Shown here: one piece after another, positions 35,589-62,360 of the stretch
Layout of the letters: the number at the start of each line of letters is the position of its first letter
Numbering within the stretch: the first letter of the stretch is position 1
Assembly (NCBI GenBank): GCA_019192545.1
Contig: JAHCMI010000003.1
Location: forward strand, 62,001-126,000
Length of the DNA: 64,000 nt
Source of the DNA: Rivularia sp. MS3
Lineage (GTDB): Bacteria > Cyanobacteriota > Cyanobacteriia > Cyanobacteriales > Nostocaceae
Direction of reading: 5' to 3'
The notes under the pieces: model-generated
What the model was told of the DNA's origin: nothing
The model's database searches: none
What the model saw: only the letters and a program-made list of their open reading frames with translations
Made by a program: the position numbers and the translations under genes

Positions 35589-36720
35589 GTGTTTAATCTG
35601 ACTTACGAATTCAAGTTAAAGCCAACAAAAAATCAAATAGATATTTTTGAAGAATGGTTAGAGACTCATCGTAGAGTTTACAACTATGCTTTAGCAGAAC
35701 GTAAGGACTGGTATAAATCCCGGTCATGTAAGATTAAAGCTTGTAGTCTTCATGGCTGTTACATTATTCCTGCCGACGCACCACGCCCAACTTATGCAAG
35801 TCAATGTAAATCTTTAACTGCTGCACGTAAAAGTAACGAGTATTTAGGTAAAATCAATGCTCAATCCTTGCAGCAAACATTGAGAAGACTAGAAAAAGCT
35901 TTTGTTTTTAAAACAAGCGCGTGTAGTTAAACGTGTTTCTGGTTGGTATGTAACGCTGACCGTGCAGTGGGATGTAAATCCACCGCAAACGATGCCACAT
36001 GGAGAAGGAATAGGGATTGATGTAGGGCTTACATCAATGGTTGCGACAAGTAGCGGTCTTTTAATTAAGCGTCCGAGGTTTTTTGCTGACGCAGAACGCA
36101 AGCTTAAATTGCTGCAACAACGTGTTAGTAGAAAACGCTTTGGCTCGAATAATTGGTTAAAAGCAGTACGGAAAGTTGCGAGATTGCATGAATATGTTGC
36201 TAATTGTCGTAAAGACTGGCATAGAAAGTTATCACATCAATTGTGCGATAACGTAGGAGACGAAACCTTAAAAAATGGGCAGGCTTCCAATACCAGTAAC
36301 TTGTCACAACCCGGAATCTCTCAAACCAAGCCTGCCCATTTTTTTGCGGAAAATTCAGTAGGAATGATATTTGTAGAAGATTTGAACCATAAAGGTTTAT
36401 CTAAAGGAATGTTAGGAAAGCATTGCTTGGATGCAGGTTTCGGTCAATTCTTTAATATCCTTGAGCAAACTTGTTTTAAACGTGGTGTTTATTTTCAAAA
36501 AGTAGATGCTAAGAATACTTCTCAAATATGTCCTAATTGCCAGCATGAAACGGGTAAGAAGACTTTAGCTGAACGTGTTCATAAATGTGATAATTGCGGC
36601 TATACGACTGATAGAGATATCGCAGCCGCTCAAGTAGTTCTAATTAGAGGACTTGCAGCCGTGGGGCACACGGTCAAGATGCTTAGTGAGGGTAAATTCG
36701 TCGGAATCCCTGTGAACTAA
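35589..36720 (+). pseudogene. tnpB: TnpB-type RNA-guided nuclease, frameshifted and internally deleted
   Basis: A GTG start with AGGAGGTG upstream opens a frame (35589-35930) matching the TnpB N terminus (MFNLTYEFKLKPTKNQ, then CKSLTAARK). It then shifts frame and the rest reads in 35902-36720. Some 60-75 residues between LRRLEKAF and KQARVVKRVSGWYV are missing compared with intact TnpB. RuvC residues survive: Asp in GIDVG, Glu in VEDLN, Asp in TDRD, with zinc cysteines CPNC and CDNC. A 35-residue insertion (see the repeat at 36259-36363) lies before VEDLN. Confidence 0.9.
36259..36363. repeat. 105-bp palindromic insertion inside tnpB, in frame
   Basis: A perfect 17-bp inverted repeat (36270-36286 and 36328-36344; AAAAAATGGGCAGGCTT and its complement) encloses 41 bases. 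The insert is flanked by GTAGGA at 36253-36258 and 36358-36363. Insert plus one flank is exactly 105 bases, or 35 codons, with no stop. The text on both sides joins into a normal TnpB CDNVG-MIFVEDLN. Confidence 0.75.
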
Positions 36721-37014: not shown

Positions 37015-37659
37015 TTAACTTATCTTGGAAAAATTGTTGCCCTGATAAATTTGTTTTGAAGCTTTAGGAATATAAATCCAGCCAAGACTTTGTAAGCGGT
37101 TTGTTAAGTTAGAAATTGTTACTCCTAATTCATCTGCGACAGCATACAAATGTCGCCATTTAGTAAAATCGCGTCCTCTTCGTGCTTCTTCTAATTTATA
37201 TAAAGGCATAAGTAAACAACTAGCCAAATATTGAGCTTGCCATTCAATTCCTTTTTTAGCAGTAACGCTACGACATAAAAATGGTTCTACAGTCATTATC
37301 AATTCAGAACTCATTCTTTCTTTAAATACATCGAGAGCATGATGCTCTATGTGAAGTAACCAGTGTCCTATTTCGTGACCTATAGTAGATTGTCCAAAAC
37401 CACCCTCTAATGCTGGAATTTGGTCGTTAATAATAATTTTTCTTTGAATTGGTAAAATCATTGCTGCTATATATCCCTCACGATCGGGAACTATAGTTTC
37501 CCAAACAATACCTATATCCAGATAATCAGCAACAGCTTCAGCAACACAATTTCCTTTTAAAGGACGTTTTCGGTTTGCTTGTACCCTATTCAAAATATCT
37601 AATGCCACTTGCTCTATTTCTTGCTTAGACATAAAGCGATATGGCTTAATAACATTCAA
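37015..37659 (-). CDS. ImmA/IrrE-type metallo-endopeptidase
   Basis: The 214-aa protein has the zinc protease motif IGHEIGHW (His95, Glu96, His99), and a downstream IEWQAQYLASCLLMP carries the third metal ligand, Glu139. Such proteins cleave a partner XRE repressor on DNA damage or another signal, as ImmA does in ICEBs1. The start may be the TTG at 37659, which follows AGGAG by eight bases, or the ATG ten codons in (37632). The stop of the XRE gene ends two bases upstream, so the two are translationally coupled. Confidence 0.85.
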   Translation of the reverse strand: MNVIKPYRFMSKQEIEQVALDILNRVQANRKRPLKGNCVAEAVADYLDIGIVWETIVPDREGYIAAMILPIQRKIIINDQIPALEGGFGQSTIGHEIGHWLLHIEHHALDVFKERMSSELIMTVEPFLCRSVTAKKGIEWQAQYLASCLLMPLYKLEEARRGRDFTKWRHLYAVADELGVTISNLTNRLQSLGWIYIPKASKQIYQGNNFSKIS

Positions 37660-37661
37660 CT

Positions 37662-38024
37662 CTATTTCTCCTCTTCATCTGGAGTTGTTTCTTTCAATAA
37701 TTCCTGTGCAAATTTGGGTTCATCTCGCATCCTCCGAAGTAAAGCAGGCATTTGTTTATACTTTCTTACAAGCTCTTCAAATACTTCGGCATCTTCTGGA
37801 GTTATTCTTCCTGCAAGTCGTCTTAGCTCATCTTTTTTTTCTATCAAATCTAGTTTTTCGGCTAACAAGTCAATAACTTCTTCACTAGGAGGATAGCCAG
37901 CGTGGTCATTCTCTAACTTTGACAGGTAGGTATAGTTAACTCCTACCAATTTAGCTAGCTCGCGCTGACTATACTCCTTCTGTTTGCGAGCTTGGCGAAT
38001 GAGTTTACCAAAGGTTTCTTTCAC
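37662..38024 (-). CDS. XRE-family transcriptional repressor
   Basis: The 120-aa protein has an N-terminal Cro/CI helix-turn-helix (about 4-62: FGKLIRQARKQKEYSQREL, then NYTYLSKLEND). A helical, acidic C-terminal arm follows (about 75-118). It is transcribed with the ImmA-type protease and diverges from the small protein-nuclease-Argonaute operon, 144 bases away. The likely role is repression of that operon or its own pair, relieved when ImmA cleaves it. Confidence 0.88.
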   Translation of the reverse strand: MKETFGKLIRQARKQKEYSQRELAKLVGVNYTYLSKLENDHAGYPPSEEVIDLLAEKLDLIEKKDELRRLAGRITPEDAEVFEELVRKYKQMPALLRRMRDEPKFAQELLKETTPDEEEK

Positions 38025-38168
38025 GGTTCTCTTCCTTTAAGCCTAAGAATCATACTCTACCTTTTCTCAATGGTTCATATCTGTAAAATTTTTAATCTAT
38101 GTTGACTATATTGGTCAAGTTGTGCAATAACTACACTATAGTACTTTTGCTCGTTTATCTCTAGTCAA
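38025..38168. promoter_or_regulatory. Divergent control region with possible operator
   Basis: This is 144 bases between the XRE gene and the small-protein gene. A TTGAC/GTCAA inverted repeat (38102-38118, 7-base spacer) overlaps a possible -35 TTGACT, and a second palindrome ACTATAGT lies at about 38134-38141. These are candidate repressor sites, although no -10 could be fixed. Confidence 0.35.
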
Positions 38169-38393
38169 ATGAATAAAAATCAACAATCTAATCCAAATCA
38201 GCTATGTTTTTCTATCGGTAGACCTTTAACAGTCCTTTTAGAAGAGGTTCAGACTTCAAGTAGCGATACAAACTTGAAACAAGCTGCGGAGCAGATGTTA
38301 GAAGCCTTACAGACTTTTGAAATTGCTAATAAACCAGGTGTATCCAAATCTGCTATAACCAGTCAAGCGATTTACGAAATCCTTACAAAATGA
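38169..38393 (+). CDS. Small hypothetical protein heading the Argonaute operon
   Basis: The 74-aa soluble protein begins at an ATG (MNKNQQSNPNQLCF) and ends ITSQAIYEILTK. The middle (about 22-55) is helical. I recognise no domain. It lies 19 bases before the nuclease gene and reads in the same direction, so it is likely the first gene of the operon. It might be a regulatory subunit or adaptor. Confidence 0.55.
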   Translation: MNKNQQSNPNQLCFSIGRPLTVLLEEVQTSSSDTNLKQAAEQMLEALQTFEIANKPGVSKSAITSQAIYEILTK

Positions 38394-38412
38394 ATAAAAT
38401 TAAGAGTTTTTT

Positions 38413-39228
38413 ATGAAAAAAGTTTGGAATTTTGCTAGTTACAATCTGCTGTCTTTGTTTTCTCCAGCGGTAGGACTCGAACATCTTCATTGCGATATGA
38501 AAAGAGGTTTTGCTAAAGCGAGAAAAAAGGAACCAGAAGTAGCAGCACTTTTAGAAAAAGATAATACGGCTCAGACTATAGGATTGTTGGCACAAAAAGC
38601 GGTTTACGAGATTCATCAAGATTCTTCAACTTTTTCACAAGAAGATACACTGAATCGAATAATTAGCATTTTGCAGTTAAGTAAAGAATCCGATTTAGTT
38701 CAACAAAGAGTAACTCAAGTAATTAAAAATTATCTTGAAAATCCGATTCTACTAGGTAAAAAAGTAATTAAACTTAGTCGAGGTGATGAAGGTTTTCCCG
38801 AACCAATTTTAATTCAGCAGGGTAGTTATTTATTCAATTTATATGCAGCAATCGACTGTATTTTTTTAGAAGAAGACAATACCCTACATATTTTAGATTT
38901 CAAAACTGGTAAATCCAATTTTGACCGCAGACAAGCTTACATTTATCTGTTAGCAGCTAGCTATATTTACCCAGAACATAAAGCAGTTGCTTCGTTTTAT
39001 AACTTAGAAACCTGCAAGCAATCAAAGGCAATTACAGCTACACCTGAAACGTTAGAATCTTTCCAAATTACGATGTCTAGGATAGCAAAACAGCATCAAA
39101 CAGATTTACGACGTTACCGCCAAAAAACTGATGATTTTCGAGATATATTTCCCCAAAATGCTGGTGTAAGCTGTCGATTTTGTCCTTTTAGTTCTATTTG
39201 TGAATTCGCTATTGAGGGTGCTATATGA
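38413..39228 (+). CDS. Cas4-like PD-(D/E)XK nuclease
   Basis: The 271-aa protein has the RecB/Cas4 nuclease core: Asp148 in AAIDCIF, Asp162 and Lys164 in [10 protein letters not shown], and a QxxxY-type stretch [14 protein letters not shown] after it. The C-terminal cysteines C254, C257 and C263 ([10 protein letters not shown]) plus an upstream cysteine such as C27 would make the four ligands of a Fe-S cluster. It overlaps the Argonaute start by four bases (ATGA), so the two are coupled. Cas4-like nucleases have been reported next to Argonaute genes. Confidence 0.8.
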
Positions 39229-41474
39229 ATAGTGTTATGGTTCAACCACGTCCGCAATCAGCTTTAGAAACAAAGTTTTTAAGCGAAATATTACCTTTAA
39301 TAATTTTAAAAGATACAAAACCAAATTTTATCTGCTTTCGGCTTTCTCCGGAAGTAGAGCGAGAAATTGGCAACCGTTTAAGTTGGCGTTTTTGTCACAA
39401 GTTTCCAGATGTTATTGTAATTTGGGATAAAAAGTTTTTTTGGGCTTTAGCTAAACCAAATCAAGTTATGCCAAGCCAAAAATAATGGCGAGAAGCATTA
39501 ACAGAAATATGTGAAGAATTGAGAAAAGATATCGGCGATTGTGATTATTCGATTCAATGGGTACGTCAACCGCAGTTAACAGCTTCTACCTTATCTCAGT
39601 TAGCAGTTAGGATTTTAAAAATTACTCGTCCTTTTTCATCAGAAACAGCTTTATCGGAAAAACAGATAGAAGTAAAGCGAGAAGCAAATTTTTGGGCAGA
39701 GACTATAGAAATAAACAATCAGTTATTCTCAGCTTTAACAATAACTGTTAAAAGTAATTTTAGCTGTAAAAGCAATTTAGCAGAATTTTTTGAAAATCAT
39801 CCTTTTAGACAAGATCCAAATAAGCTTTTAATTGGTTTAAAAGTTCGGGATATCGAACATAATAGCTTTGCTACAATCACCGGAATTATTGGTAATATTG
39901 CCGAACACAGAGAAAGGTTAATAGAAGATGCAACTGGTGCAATTAGCAAGCAAGCATTGGAAGAAGCACCCGACGAGCAACCAGTAGTTACCGTGCAATT
40001 TGGTAAGAATAAGACACAATTTCGTTACGCAATGGCAGCTTTACGTCCATGTGTAACTGCTGAAACTGTTAATAAATTTGAAGTAGATTATGGAAAGCTA
40101 CTTAAAGCAACAAAAGTAGCTTGTAGAGAAAGAAAAGAACTTTTAGAAGTTTACAAAAAAGAAGCAAATATAGTTTTAGCTAATTATGGATTAAAATTAG
40201 GACGAAGTATAAATAGTTCTAGTTACTCACAATTATTTTGGCAGCCATCATTAAAGCTTTCAGAAACCAAACTTTTATTTGGTAATAATGTTATTGGTCT
40301 TCAACAACGTATACTCACAGGACTTTCTCAAGGTGGAGTTTATTTCCGTCATGAAGATTACCAAGATCCATCAGATAAAATTAACATAGCTGCTTTAAAA
40401 ATTGGTAATTTTCAGGTTGCATTTTCTCTTTTAAATGAAGTTGAAAAACGTTTAAATAAATATGGTTTTGGAAGTATAAGAGCTAAAGAAAATATTAAAT
40501 CAATACCGTTAGAAAATTATACTAATATCAAAGATAGAATCAAAATTGAGGAAGCTATAGATGATTTAATGGAAAAACATCCCGATATAGTTTTAGTGTT
40601 TTTACCTACTAGCGATAGAAGTACTGACGATACTGGTGATAGTCTTTATTCTTTGGTTTACTCACGGTTATTAAGAAGAGGAATTGCGAGCCAAGTAATT
40701 TATGAAGATACCTTGAAAAAAGTCCAAGTTAGTAATATTCTTAATCAAGTCATTCCAGGAATATTAGCTAAGTTAGGTAACTTACCGTATGTGTTAGCTG
40801 AACCATTAAAAATAGCAGATTATTTTGTAGGTTTAGATATTTCTAGAGGTTCCAAAAAGAAAACTGCTGGAACTATGAATGCTTGTGCTAGTTTAAGACT
40901 TTATGGACAAAAAGGGGAATTTAACGGCTATAAATTGGAAGATGCTTTGATTGAAGGTGAAGAGATTCCGCGAAGAGTTTTAGAAAAATTTCTTCCAAGA
41001 GCAAAACTAAAAGGAAAGACTGTTTTAATTTATCGAGACGGACGTTTTTGCGGTAAAGAAGCTATACATTTAAAAGAATGGGCAGAAGTTATAAACTCTA
41101 AATTCATTTTAGTTGAATGTTATAAATCAGGAATACCTAGACTTTATAACTGGAATGGAAAAGTTATTAAAGCACCTACAAAAGGTTTGGCGTTACGTCT
41201 ATCATCTCGTGAAGTGATTTTGGTAACGACTGAATTGAAAAATGAAAATATGGGTTTACCTCTCCCATTGCGTTTAAAAATTCACGAAGCAGGACATTTA
41301 GTATCAATTGAAGATTTAGTAGATACCACGCTCAAACTTACATTACTTCACTATGGCTCTCTGAGAGAACCACGTTTACCAGTACCGCTTTACGGCTCCG
41401 ATATTATGGCTTACCGACGCTTACAAGGAATTTATCCCGGTGCGTTAGATGGCGATCGCCAATTCTGGCTTTAA
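39225..41474 (+). pseudogene. Long prokaryotic Argonaute interrupted by one in-frame TAA
   Basis: The frame 39225-41474 is one Argonaute reading frame of 750 codons, broken by TAA at 39483-39485. The text on both sides runs on without a shift (MPSQK, stop, WREALTEICEELR). The N-terminal 86 codons hold the start of the N domain. The remainder holds the rest of N, the linker, a PAZ-like region, MID (GIASQVIYEDTL, ILAKLGNLPYVL) and PIWI (YFVGLDISRG, then YRDGR). The ATG overlaps the nuclease stop. Choices are a recent nonsense change (for example from CAA), readthrough, or expression as two chains. Confidence 0.85.
39519..41474 (+). CDS. MID-PIWI part of the interrupted Argonaute
   Basis: This is the largest open part of the Argonaute, 651 codons from a TTG that has no good Shine-Dalgarno; the next in-frame ATG is codon 172. 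The PIWI tetrad is present: Asp440 (GLDIS), Glu481 or Glu482 (GEEIP), Asp507 (YRDG) and a candidate Asp628 (YGSDIMAYR). This suggests a slicing-competent PIWI domain if the protein is made. The MID pocket around 390-425 has the Gln and Lys positions expected for guide 5'-end binding. Confidence 0.6.
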   Translation: MRKDIGDCDYSIQWVRQPQLTASTLSQLAVRILKITRPFSSETALSEKQIEVKREANFWAETIEINNQLFSALTITVKSNFSCKSNLAEFFENHPFRQDPNKLLIGLKVRDIEHNSFATITGIIGNIAEHRERLIEDATGAISKQALEEAPDEQPVVTVQFGKNKTQFRYAMAALRPCVTAETVNKFEVDYGKLLKATKVACRERKELLEVYKKEANIVLANYGLKLGRSINSSSYSQLFWQPSLKLSETKLLFGNNVIGLQQRILTGLSQGGVYFRHEDYQDPSDKINIAALKIGNFQVAFSLLNEVEKRLNKYGFGSIRAKENIKSIPLENYTNIKDRIKIEEAIDDLMEKHPDIVLVFLPTSDRSTDDTGDSLYSLVYSRLLRRGIASQVIYEDTLKKVQVSNILNQVIPGILAKLGNLPYVLAEPLKIADYFVGLDISRGSKKKTAGTMNACASLRLYGQKGEFNGYKLEDALIEGEEIPRRVLEKFLPRAKLKGKTVLIYRDGRFCGKEAIHLKEWAEVINSKFILVECYKSGIPRLYNWNGKVIKAPTKGLALRLSSREVILVTTELKNENMGLPLPLRLKIHEAGHLVSIEDLVDTTLKLTLLHYGSLREPRLPVPLYGSDIMAYRRLQGIYPGALDGDRQFWL

Positions 41475-61847: not shown

Positions 61848-62360
61848 TCAAACAACCCGATTAACAATCGTCCAAACATCTCCATCAGAACGAACGTAGG
61901 GAACGGAGATAGTTTTAAAGCCCGTGATGAATGGTTTGTAATATACCTGCCAATAAAGTGGAGTTAGATTATCGGCGCAAGTTTTGAGACTGTTGACTTC
62001 TGTTGCGAGTTCTGAAGCTAGCTGATTTATCCGTTCTGCATGAGCTTTAGCCTGAGTTTTAGCTTCTTCCAATTGTTCTATCTGCTCGGAAAGGCGGGTT
62101 ATATATCCACTGCGAGATTTTTTGATGATTGTTTCTTTTTCTGCTAGCTGAAATTCTAAAGCAGCGATCGCCTCATCTATAGCTTTAAGCTCGGCAAACA
62201 ATTGAGGATTTTCTCTTGCCTGACGACGATAAGCTTCTGCTATCTCTTGGGGTGAATCATTCTCTGAAGGTGTGATGTTCACAGCAAGAGAAGCACCTTC
62301 TCGGCGCAGTCGATTAATTTGAGAACGAATCACCTCAATTTCTGCCCGAACATCTTGCAT
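61848..62360 (-). CDS. Coiled-coil hypothetical protein
   Basis: The 170-aa soluble protein is mostly helix, with two coiled-coil stretches (about 2-25 and 65-125) rich in Glu, Ala and Arg, and a C-terminal beta-like end (YKPFITGFKTISVPYVRSDG). I do not recognise a family. It starts at an ATG nine bases after thrB (minus strand), so it is likely the second gene of a thrB operon. Confidence 0.65.
   Translation of the reverse strand: MQDVRAEIEVIRSQINRLRREGASLAVNITPSENDSPQEIAEAYRRQARENPQLFAELKAIDEAIAALEFQLAEKETIIKKSRSGYITRLSEQIEQLEEAKTQAKAHAERINQLASELATEVNSLKTCADNLTPLYWQVYYKPFITGFKTISVPYVRSDGDVWTIVNRVV

Follow-up and report, generated by a model that had tools for sequence, protein, structure and literature searches.

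How should a long Argonaute gene be understood when its frame is complete except for one early stop codon: as a gene just lost, as one made in two pieces, as one that is read through, or as one misread in sequencing? This question is raised by a locus in the cyanobacterium Rivularia sp. MS3 (Nostocaceae; GenBank assembly GCA_019192545.1, a draft of 9.19 Mb in 174 contigs). The window is a stretch of 64,000 nucleotides, positions 62,001 to 126,000 of contig JAHCMI010000003.1, and all coordinates given here are counted within it. Direct reading of the window confirmed the arrangement described in an earlier note on this DNA, in which a 74-residue open reading frame (ORF), a Cas4-like nuclease and a long Argonaute follow one another in tandem from 5' to 3', with the Argonaute ATG at 39225 overlapping the nuclease TGA as ATGA (39225-39228). 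Very likely, this is an anti-DNA defence operon of a cyanobacterial long Argonaute and a Cas4-family nuclease in which the Argonaute was very recently lost by a single nonsense mutation, leaving its partners intact. The parts of the operon are as follows.

38169 to 38393, plus strand: small conserved protein of 74 amino acids, the first gene of the operon here (ratio of nonsynonymous to synonymous substitution rates, dN/dS; tblastn).
38413 to 39228, plus strand: Cas4-like PD-(D/E)XK nuclease of 271 amino acids with four conserved cysteines, intact (Pfam, PADLOC, solved structure 9iab).
39225 to 39482, plus strand: Argonaute codons 1-86, presumably part of the N domain (PADLOC pAgo_II, E=2.5e-26).
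39483 to 39485, plus strand: in-frame TAA stop, Argonaute codon 87 (read from the sequence).
39486 to 41474, plus strand: remaining Argonaute frame of 662 codons with the Piwi domain (Pfam Piwi, E=3.8e-12; PADLOC pAgo_II, E=0).
40836 to 40838, 40959 to 40961, 41037 to 41039 and 41400 to 41402, plus strand: codons of the DEDD tetrad (columns of the Argonaute homologues).

The Argonaute frame spans 749 codons, is interrupted once at codon 87 (39483-39485), reopens at 39486 and ends at 41474. Its 86-residue piece matches positions 5-77 of the PADLOC pAgo_II profile and its 662-residue piece matches positions 80-737; as both pieces match adjoining parts of one profile, there is neither a frameshift nor a lost segment. 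All 662 residues after the stop align with the solved relative 9iad (E=7.9e-303), while codons 1-86 are 91% identical to the orthologue in the same genus. In 61 intact homologues, a set selected for an open frame, the coding frame continues across the position of the stop. The catalytic tetrad consists of D538, E579, D605 and D726, the first three columns being invariant (61/61 each) and the fourth being aspartate in 54 homologues and histidine in seven. The full tetrad and the single TAA reported in the earlier note are therefore both real features of the sequence as assembled, and the PIWI domain carries the DEDX tetrad of a catalytic long-A Argonaute. What the window does not encode is one continuous N-PAZ-MID-PIWI protein, which the orthologue, open throughout, does. 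Translation in this strain would end at codon 87, ahead of most of the protein including the PIWI domain, and a functional Argonaute is therefore not expected. No damage is apparent in the nuclease, the small protein or the regulators upstream.

The age of the lesion can be judged from a close relative. A second genome of the genus, G390 (8.7 Mb in three contigs), encodes the orthologous operon with an Argonaute that is open over 752 codons and 91% identical, and its gene order is identical to that of the window: purS, purQ, protease, repressor, small ORF, nuclease, Argonaute and Uma2. This provides the comparison with an intact Argonaute that had been called for earlier. Between the two genomes, dN/dS is 0.223 for Argonaute codons 1-86 and 0.140 for the remainder, near the value for the intact nuclease (0.179); the protease has 0.223, the repressor 0.065, and four flanking genes lie at 0.060-0.109. 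At the 187 columns conserved in at least 90% of the 61 intact homologues, the window Argonaute departs three times, each time in common with G390, and has no private change. When polarised with eight outgroups, private substitutions number eight in the window versus eight in G390, with 49 of the 65 differences between the two Argonautes being unpolarised or in a third state. Had constraint been absent over the whole branch, the 187 columns should have gathered about 65-69 nonsynonymous changes, a rough figure obtained by halving the pairwise synonymous divergence (dS); as no private change is seen, the gene has been unconstrained for less than about 5% of the branch. From these comparisons the lesion looks very recent. 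The earlier suggestion of a freshly inactivated defence system thus fits well, given the open orthologue, the low dN/dS after the stop and the absence of private changes at conserved columns.

Two points weigh against this reading of recent loss. A wrong base call at the stop would leave an identical picture of conservation, and the same data would also fit an Argonaute that is still functional through read-through or restart. That the stop is an error of sequencing or assembly, and the strain has a working Argonaute, is unlikely, though conservation after the stop resembles that of a living gene and the genome is in draft state, with 174 contigs. Against an error, nothing else disturbs the frame, the remaining operon genes are open, and modern assemblies rarely contain single-base consensus errors of this sort. 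Real losses are also common in the family, though the counts come from assemblies too.

These counts rest on two sets of loci. Among 388 genomes of the order, 100 have Argonaute matches at E<=0.001, the source genome included. In the first set, 80 stretches were examined, of which 76 contain an Argonaute match and the other four are stand-alone nucleases; 73 of these 76 loci come from 71 of the 99 other matching genomes and three from a search of the genus, the 28 matching genomes with weaker or shorter Argonaute matches having been left out. For the second set, a contig search with a single Argonaute gave nothing, while a search with an alignment gave 79 named loci (L145-L223). The union is 111 distinct loci, the window not counted. 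The Argonaute is intact in 88, broken in 19 and limited by contig ends in four, so that 19 of 107 assessable loci are broken; this is a slight undercount, because L111, which has a stop, sits among the four contig-end loci. Within the named loci, 64 of 79 have an intact Argonaute with DEDD or DEDH, including those of Calothrix sp. PCC 7103 and Chlorogloeopsis fritschii PCC 6912, both filamentous. A published study reports predicted active Argonautes in filamentous cyanobacteria from only two metagenomic sequences (PMC10653904), a lower count that is perhaps explained by its added demand for a conserved PAZ domain.

How the Argonaute is broken in relatives bears on whether the stop could be tolerated. 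Nine loci were examined for the positions of stops. In-frame stops without a frameshift occur at codons 252 (L082), 470 and 632 (L076), 580 (L083), 614 (L111) and 698 (L098), and L114, whose frame is also broken, has one at codon 482. The stops in the first five of these loci are TAA or TGA, and among all seven stops in the six relatives no codon position is common to two loci or to the window. Other Argonautes are broken by frame changes, deletions or insertions, the latter with long ORFs inside (L058, L104) or with several ORFs (L118). It is barely credible that the window stop is read through, by a suppressor tRNA or by programmed recoding, to give a low level of full-length protein. In-frame stops without a frameshift do recur, in five further loci; however, since they are scattered and use either TAA or TGA, there is no fixed recoding site, and programmed recoding was rejected. 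Furthermore, no ochre-suppressor tRNA with anticodon UUA was found: the genome has 65 tRNA places, of which 64 have an anticodon that can be read (61 by ARAGORN and three by inspection of model alignments), while the remaining tRNA (L256:318-389) has an unreadable anticodon loop of six bases. As a separate observation on these tRNAs, ARAGORN places 21 genes in about 2.1 kb of one array (L254; G000:C160:27800-30800), to which a tRNA model adds two more; the array is seemingly a second partial tRNA set of the genome.

The earlier note had also allowed for an Argonaute made in two pieces, and this part found no support. In that case an N fragment of 86 residues would cooperate with a fragment restarted from codon 99 onwards. 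Split Argonautes do exist: AfAgo is described as partnered by an N-L1-L2 protein from an upstream gene (PMC10954474). In the window, the second piece would contain the whole PIWI domain, and constraint on it is intact. However, the sole nearby start, the TTG of codon 99 (39519), has nothing better than GTGA as a Shine-Dalgarno sequence and is unchanged in the intact relative; the next in-frame starts are remote (TTG 245 and GTG 257, with the next ATG at codon 270). No convincing restart site was thus found 3' of the TAA in the Argonaute frame. The break at codon 87 also does not lie past an N-L1-L2 unit as in AfAgo, and no relative examined is split just there, the nearest case, L058, being broken near codon 70 by an insertion. 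Two cooperating pieces are therefore very improbable. The likeness to AfAgo and its partner AfAgo-N goes further, as the upstream gene of DSM4304 is described as having a premature stop and a related strain as having a longer copy (PMC10954474). According to the same account, however, AfAgo is naturally split after N-L1-L2, its PIWI domain is inactive and the stop follows a 2-bp deletion, whereas the window stop lies at codon 87 without a frameshift and the tetrad is complete.

With scattered stops, no convincing restart site and no UUA anticodon read, repeated ordinary loss is the simplest reading of the Argonaute breaks. As to why broken alleles arise, plasmid retention is the favoured model. 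The accessible part of one study describes all eight Synechococcus elongatus strains selected to keep the RSF1010 plasmid as having ago mutations, including a stop codon (PMC10653904). For the strain studied here, plasmid acquisition may have played the same part; that the link is by analogy counts against it.

The partner of the lost Argonaute can be identified. The nuclease matches Pfam PDDEXK_1 (E=6.8e-11) and PADLOC Aga_Cas4-like_Nuc (E=2.6e-138), and its residues 3-268 match the solved relative 9iab (E=9.3e-118). Residues C27, C254, C257, C263, D148, D162, K164, Q174 and Y178 are each present in 68 of 68 homologues, giving the PD-(D/E)XK active site, the QxxxY motif and the four cysteines of the Cas4 family. 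The model of CRISPR Cas4, TIGR00372, gives 18.2 bits (E=0.0017) against a curated cut-off of 65 bits, and the protein is therefore Cas4-like rather than a CRISPR Cas4. With the window counted, the nuclease lies directly 5' of the Argonaute in 68 of 77 loci, so the pairing survived the check proposed in the earlier note, and a chance neighbourhood was ruled out. The nine exceptions include an insertion between the genes (L058), a missing nuclease (L096, L110), a nuclease 3' of the Argonaute (L116, L117), a remnant (L118), a deletion (L121) and contig ends (L120, L122).

Within the genus, Argonaute matches were found in four of eight genomes, one being a 36-residue remnant at a contig end. All eight genomes, in addition, carry a stand-alone nuclease copy, 52-54% identical, away from any Argonaute, and for this reason the mere presence of the nuclease means little. 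This copy also lends some credit to the idea that the operon nuclease now acts without the Argonaute, for example like the stand-alone paralogue of the genus, as does its intact state here and in nine of the 19 other loci with a broken Argonaute (versus 85 of the 88 with an intact one). Lesions confined to the Argonaute number 10 (nine relatives and the window) versus at most one confined to the nuclease, a possible case in L196 with one stop in the nuclease frame within the match. However, this excess of 10 in 11 is allowed by gene length alone (P=0.17), and the notion that the nuclease outlives the Argonaute was rejected; four stand-alone nucleases of the genus, moreover, form a clade of their own (support 100/100). 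A nuclease working alone is thus a doubtful explanation, and recent loss of the Argonaute beside an intact nuclease is the reading followed here.

The pair itself belongs to a described system. An Aga_Cas4-like_Nuc family nuclease adjoins a pAgo_II Argonaute, the composition of Class II in PADLOC, and both window proteins match these models nearly end to end (E=2.6e-138 and 0). Solved structures exist for relatives of the Argonaute (9iad) and of the nuclease type (9iab, 9iac), all three presumably from work published in 2025 on cyanobacterial Argonautes that have a Cas4-family partner. With PADLOC models and solved relatives both at hand, the pair is already known, and better so than the earlier note, which had rightly said that such nucleases occur beside Argonautes, implied. 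Unlike the PADLOC pair and the solved proteins, the window Argonaute is interrupted by a stop, and the PADLOC models matched are those of the nuclease and the Argonaute. SeAgo of S. elongatus is a further cyanobacterial long-A Argonaute, likened here by its published description; a Cas4-like nuclease is reported there to contribute to its plasmid phenotype, and its ago gene likewise acquired mutations, including a stop codon, under plasmid selection (PMC10653904). From such related systems, a working Argonaute would take short DNA guides from plasmid or phage DNA and would find and cut matching DNA, while its Cas4-like partner would contribute to DNA degradation and would perhaps make the guides.

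The earlier note passed over a second layer of the locus, a divergent repressor/protease pair with a likely operator (37015-38168).

37015 to 37659, minus strand: M78 (ImmA/IrrE-type) metalloprotease, CapP-like, with a HEIGH zinc motif (Pfam Peptidase_M78, PADLOC capP).
37662 to 38024, minus strand: XRE-type helix-turn-helix repressor, CapH-like, divergent from the operon (Pfam HTH_3, PADLOC).
38101 to 38119, no strand: probable operator in the divergent promoter region, a palindrome GTTGACTATATTGGTCAAG that fits the consensus at 11 of 12 positions.

The protease matches Pfam Peptidase_M78 at the cut-off (E=1.5e-4, 22 bits; cut-off 22), with capP as its best PADLOC match (E=4.8e-15), and HExxH is kept in 52 of 53 homologues. 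The repressor matches Pfam HTH_3 (E=2.4e-12), and its two best PADLOC matches are HTH_VI (E=4.9e-11) and capH (E=4.4e-10). At least one gene of the pair lies divergently 5' of the operon in 55 of the 77 loci, and both do in 54. A helix-turn-helix repressor and an HExxH protease thus adjoin a defence operon, as do CapH and CapP of CBASS and other immune operons. Accessible descriptions of CapH/CapP name BREX, Pycsar, CBASS, DISARM and Bub as targets, whereas the window pair adjoins an Argonaute-nuclease operon instead. Helix-turn-helix (PF01381) proteins are described as common near Argonautes in the part of the source available (PMC6299218). In a limited literature search, no link between an Argonaute and a CapH or ImmA/IrrE-type regulator was found.

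Between the repressor and the operon, a 19-base palindrome, GTTGAC-N7-GTCAAC, is present at 10 or more of its 12 positions in 44 of 54 repressor loci, the window counted and L076 excluded for its long interval; it is often doubled, with copies about 40 bases apart. In this first set, shuffles gave a mean of 0.4 and a maximum of 3, and none of 17 control loci with nuclease and Argonaute but without a repressor, scanned over 400 bases, has it (Fisher, P=8e-10). Across both sets, 53 of 73 regions have the palindrome, while shuffled arms gave a mean of 0.6 and a maximum of 3. A spacer of seven is strongly preferred, with 53 regions versus 15 at a spacer of six and at most five at the others tried. 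In 28 of the 73 regions, by a count made without a control, the palindrome provides the TTGA(C/T) of a promoter-like pair directed towards the operon, a position that would suit a repressor. A scan of the source genome with the operator pattern gave nine matches versus two for the reversed pattern. The eight further matches, two of which are the two strands of one site, may be additional sites of repressor action or may have arisen by chance. Among the named loci, the repressor is absent beside all eight intact DEDH copies and present beside 46 of the 56 intact DEDD ones, a pattern that suggests a link between tetrad type and regulation, perhaps by lineage only.

Several points count against a conserved switch of this kind. 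The regulators are CapH/CapP-like by profile only, with the best PADLOC match of the repressor being to another helix-turn-helix family. The first test of the palindrome used the very set from which it had been derived, and a single genus of near-copies (g88) contributes ten of the 44 loci that have it, so the first P value is too small. At a looser threshold of 9 of 12 positions, 46 of 54 repressor loci have the palindrome, but so do four of the 17 loci without a repressor. The second set adds 37 named loci, and those usable (19 that have a repressor and 13 that lack one) gave a weaker result, nine of 19 versus one of 13 (P=0.024); by eye, three of its ten misses (L171, L178, L180) have a related palindrome with a spacer of six.

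In the mechanism that we propose, the XRE repressor would bind the GTTGAC-N7-GTCAAC palindrome and keep the operon down, and DNA damage or invasion would be followed by cleavage of the repressor by the M78 protease. By analogy with CapH/CapP, Argonautes that have such a pair beside them may be inducible. Our confidence is about evenly divided on the broader proposal that in many cyanobacteria the Argonaute-nuclease operon is stress-inducible rather than constitutive, with an XRE repressor on one or two operators and an M78 protease that destroys it as single-stranded DNA accumulates, so that the nuclease and the Argonaute are set free only under invasion or damage, and that a DEDH subset lost or never had the switch.

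The small ORF is a conserved companion of the operon. Its 74-residue product has a dN/dS of 0.196 against the orthologue of the same genus, tblastn matches 5' of the nuclease in 13 of 76 homologous loci, and a mean column identity of 75% (nine sequences). Its structure model is helical and weak (predicted local distance difference test, pLDDT, 73.9; predicted template modelling score, pTM, 0.51). No PADLOC or Pfam family matched the window protein; weak NCBIfam matches, and weak Pfam matches for one homologue, all fall far below their cut-offs. In nine loci (L052, L055, L059, L063, L072, L073, L078, L080, L081) an MMADHC-like gene (PF10229, E=3.6e-11, one member tested) lies 5' of the nuclease, in place of the 74-residue ORF or of nothing elsewhere.

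In the window, the operon sits between purQ and a Uma2 gene. Two genomes of the same genus lack the Argonaute operon in this interval: G388 (L131:8900-15340) has a large protein matching PDC-S37 and Hhe and a neighbour matching PDC-M60C, and G389 (L132:1700-8930) has two large genes without a PADLOC match. The interval looks like a site of alternating defence cassettes and a possible defence hot spot. Further upstream in the window, at 35589-36720, an IS605-type TnpB is present as two overlapping frames (35589-35930 and 35902-36720) and is apparently frameshifted.

The conserved putative switch beside these Argonautes is a more useful lead than the nonsense codon itself, which is of modest interest. 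In nature, the nonsense allele parallels the shedding of Argonaute in the laboratory by cyanobacteria that are forced to keep an attacked plasmid, and the intact operon of the same genus offers a clean comparison. The repressor, the protease and the palindrome make the timing of prokaryotic Argonaute activation testable in dozens of cyanobacteria. If the operon is indeed inducible, plasmid-interference assays carried out without induced damage may miss part of its activity.

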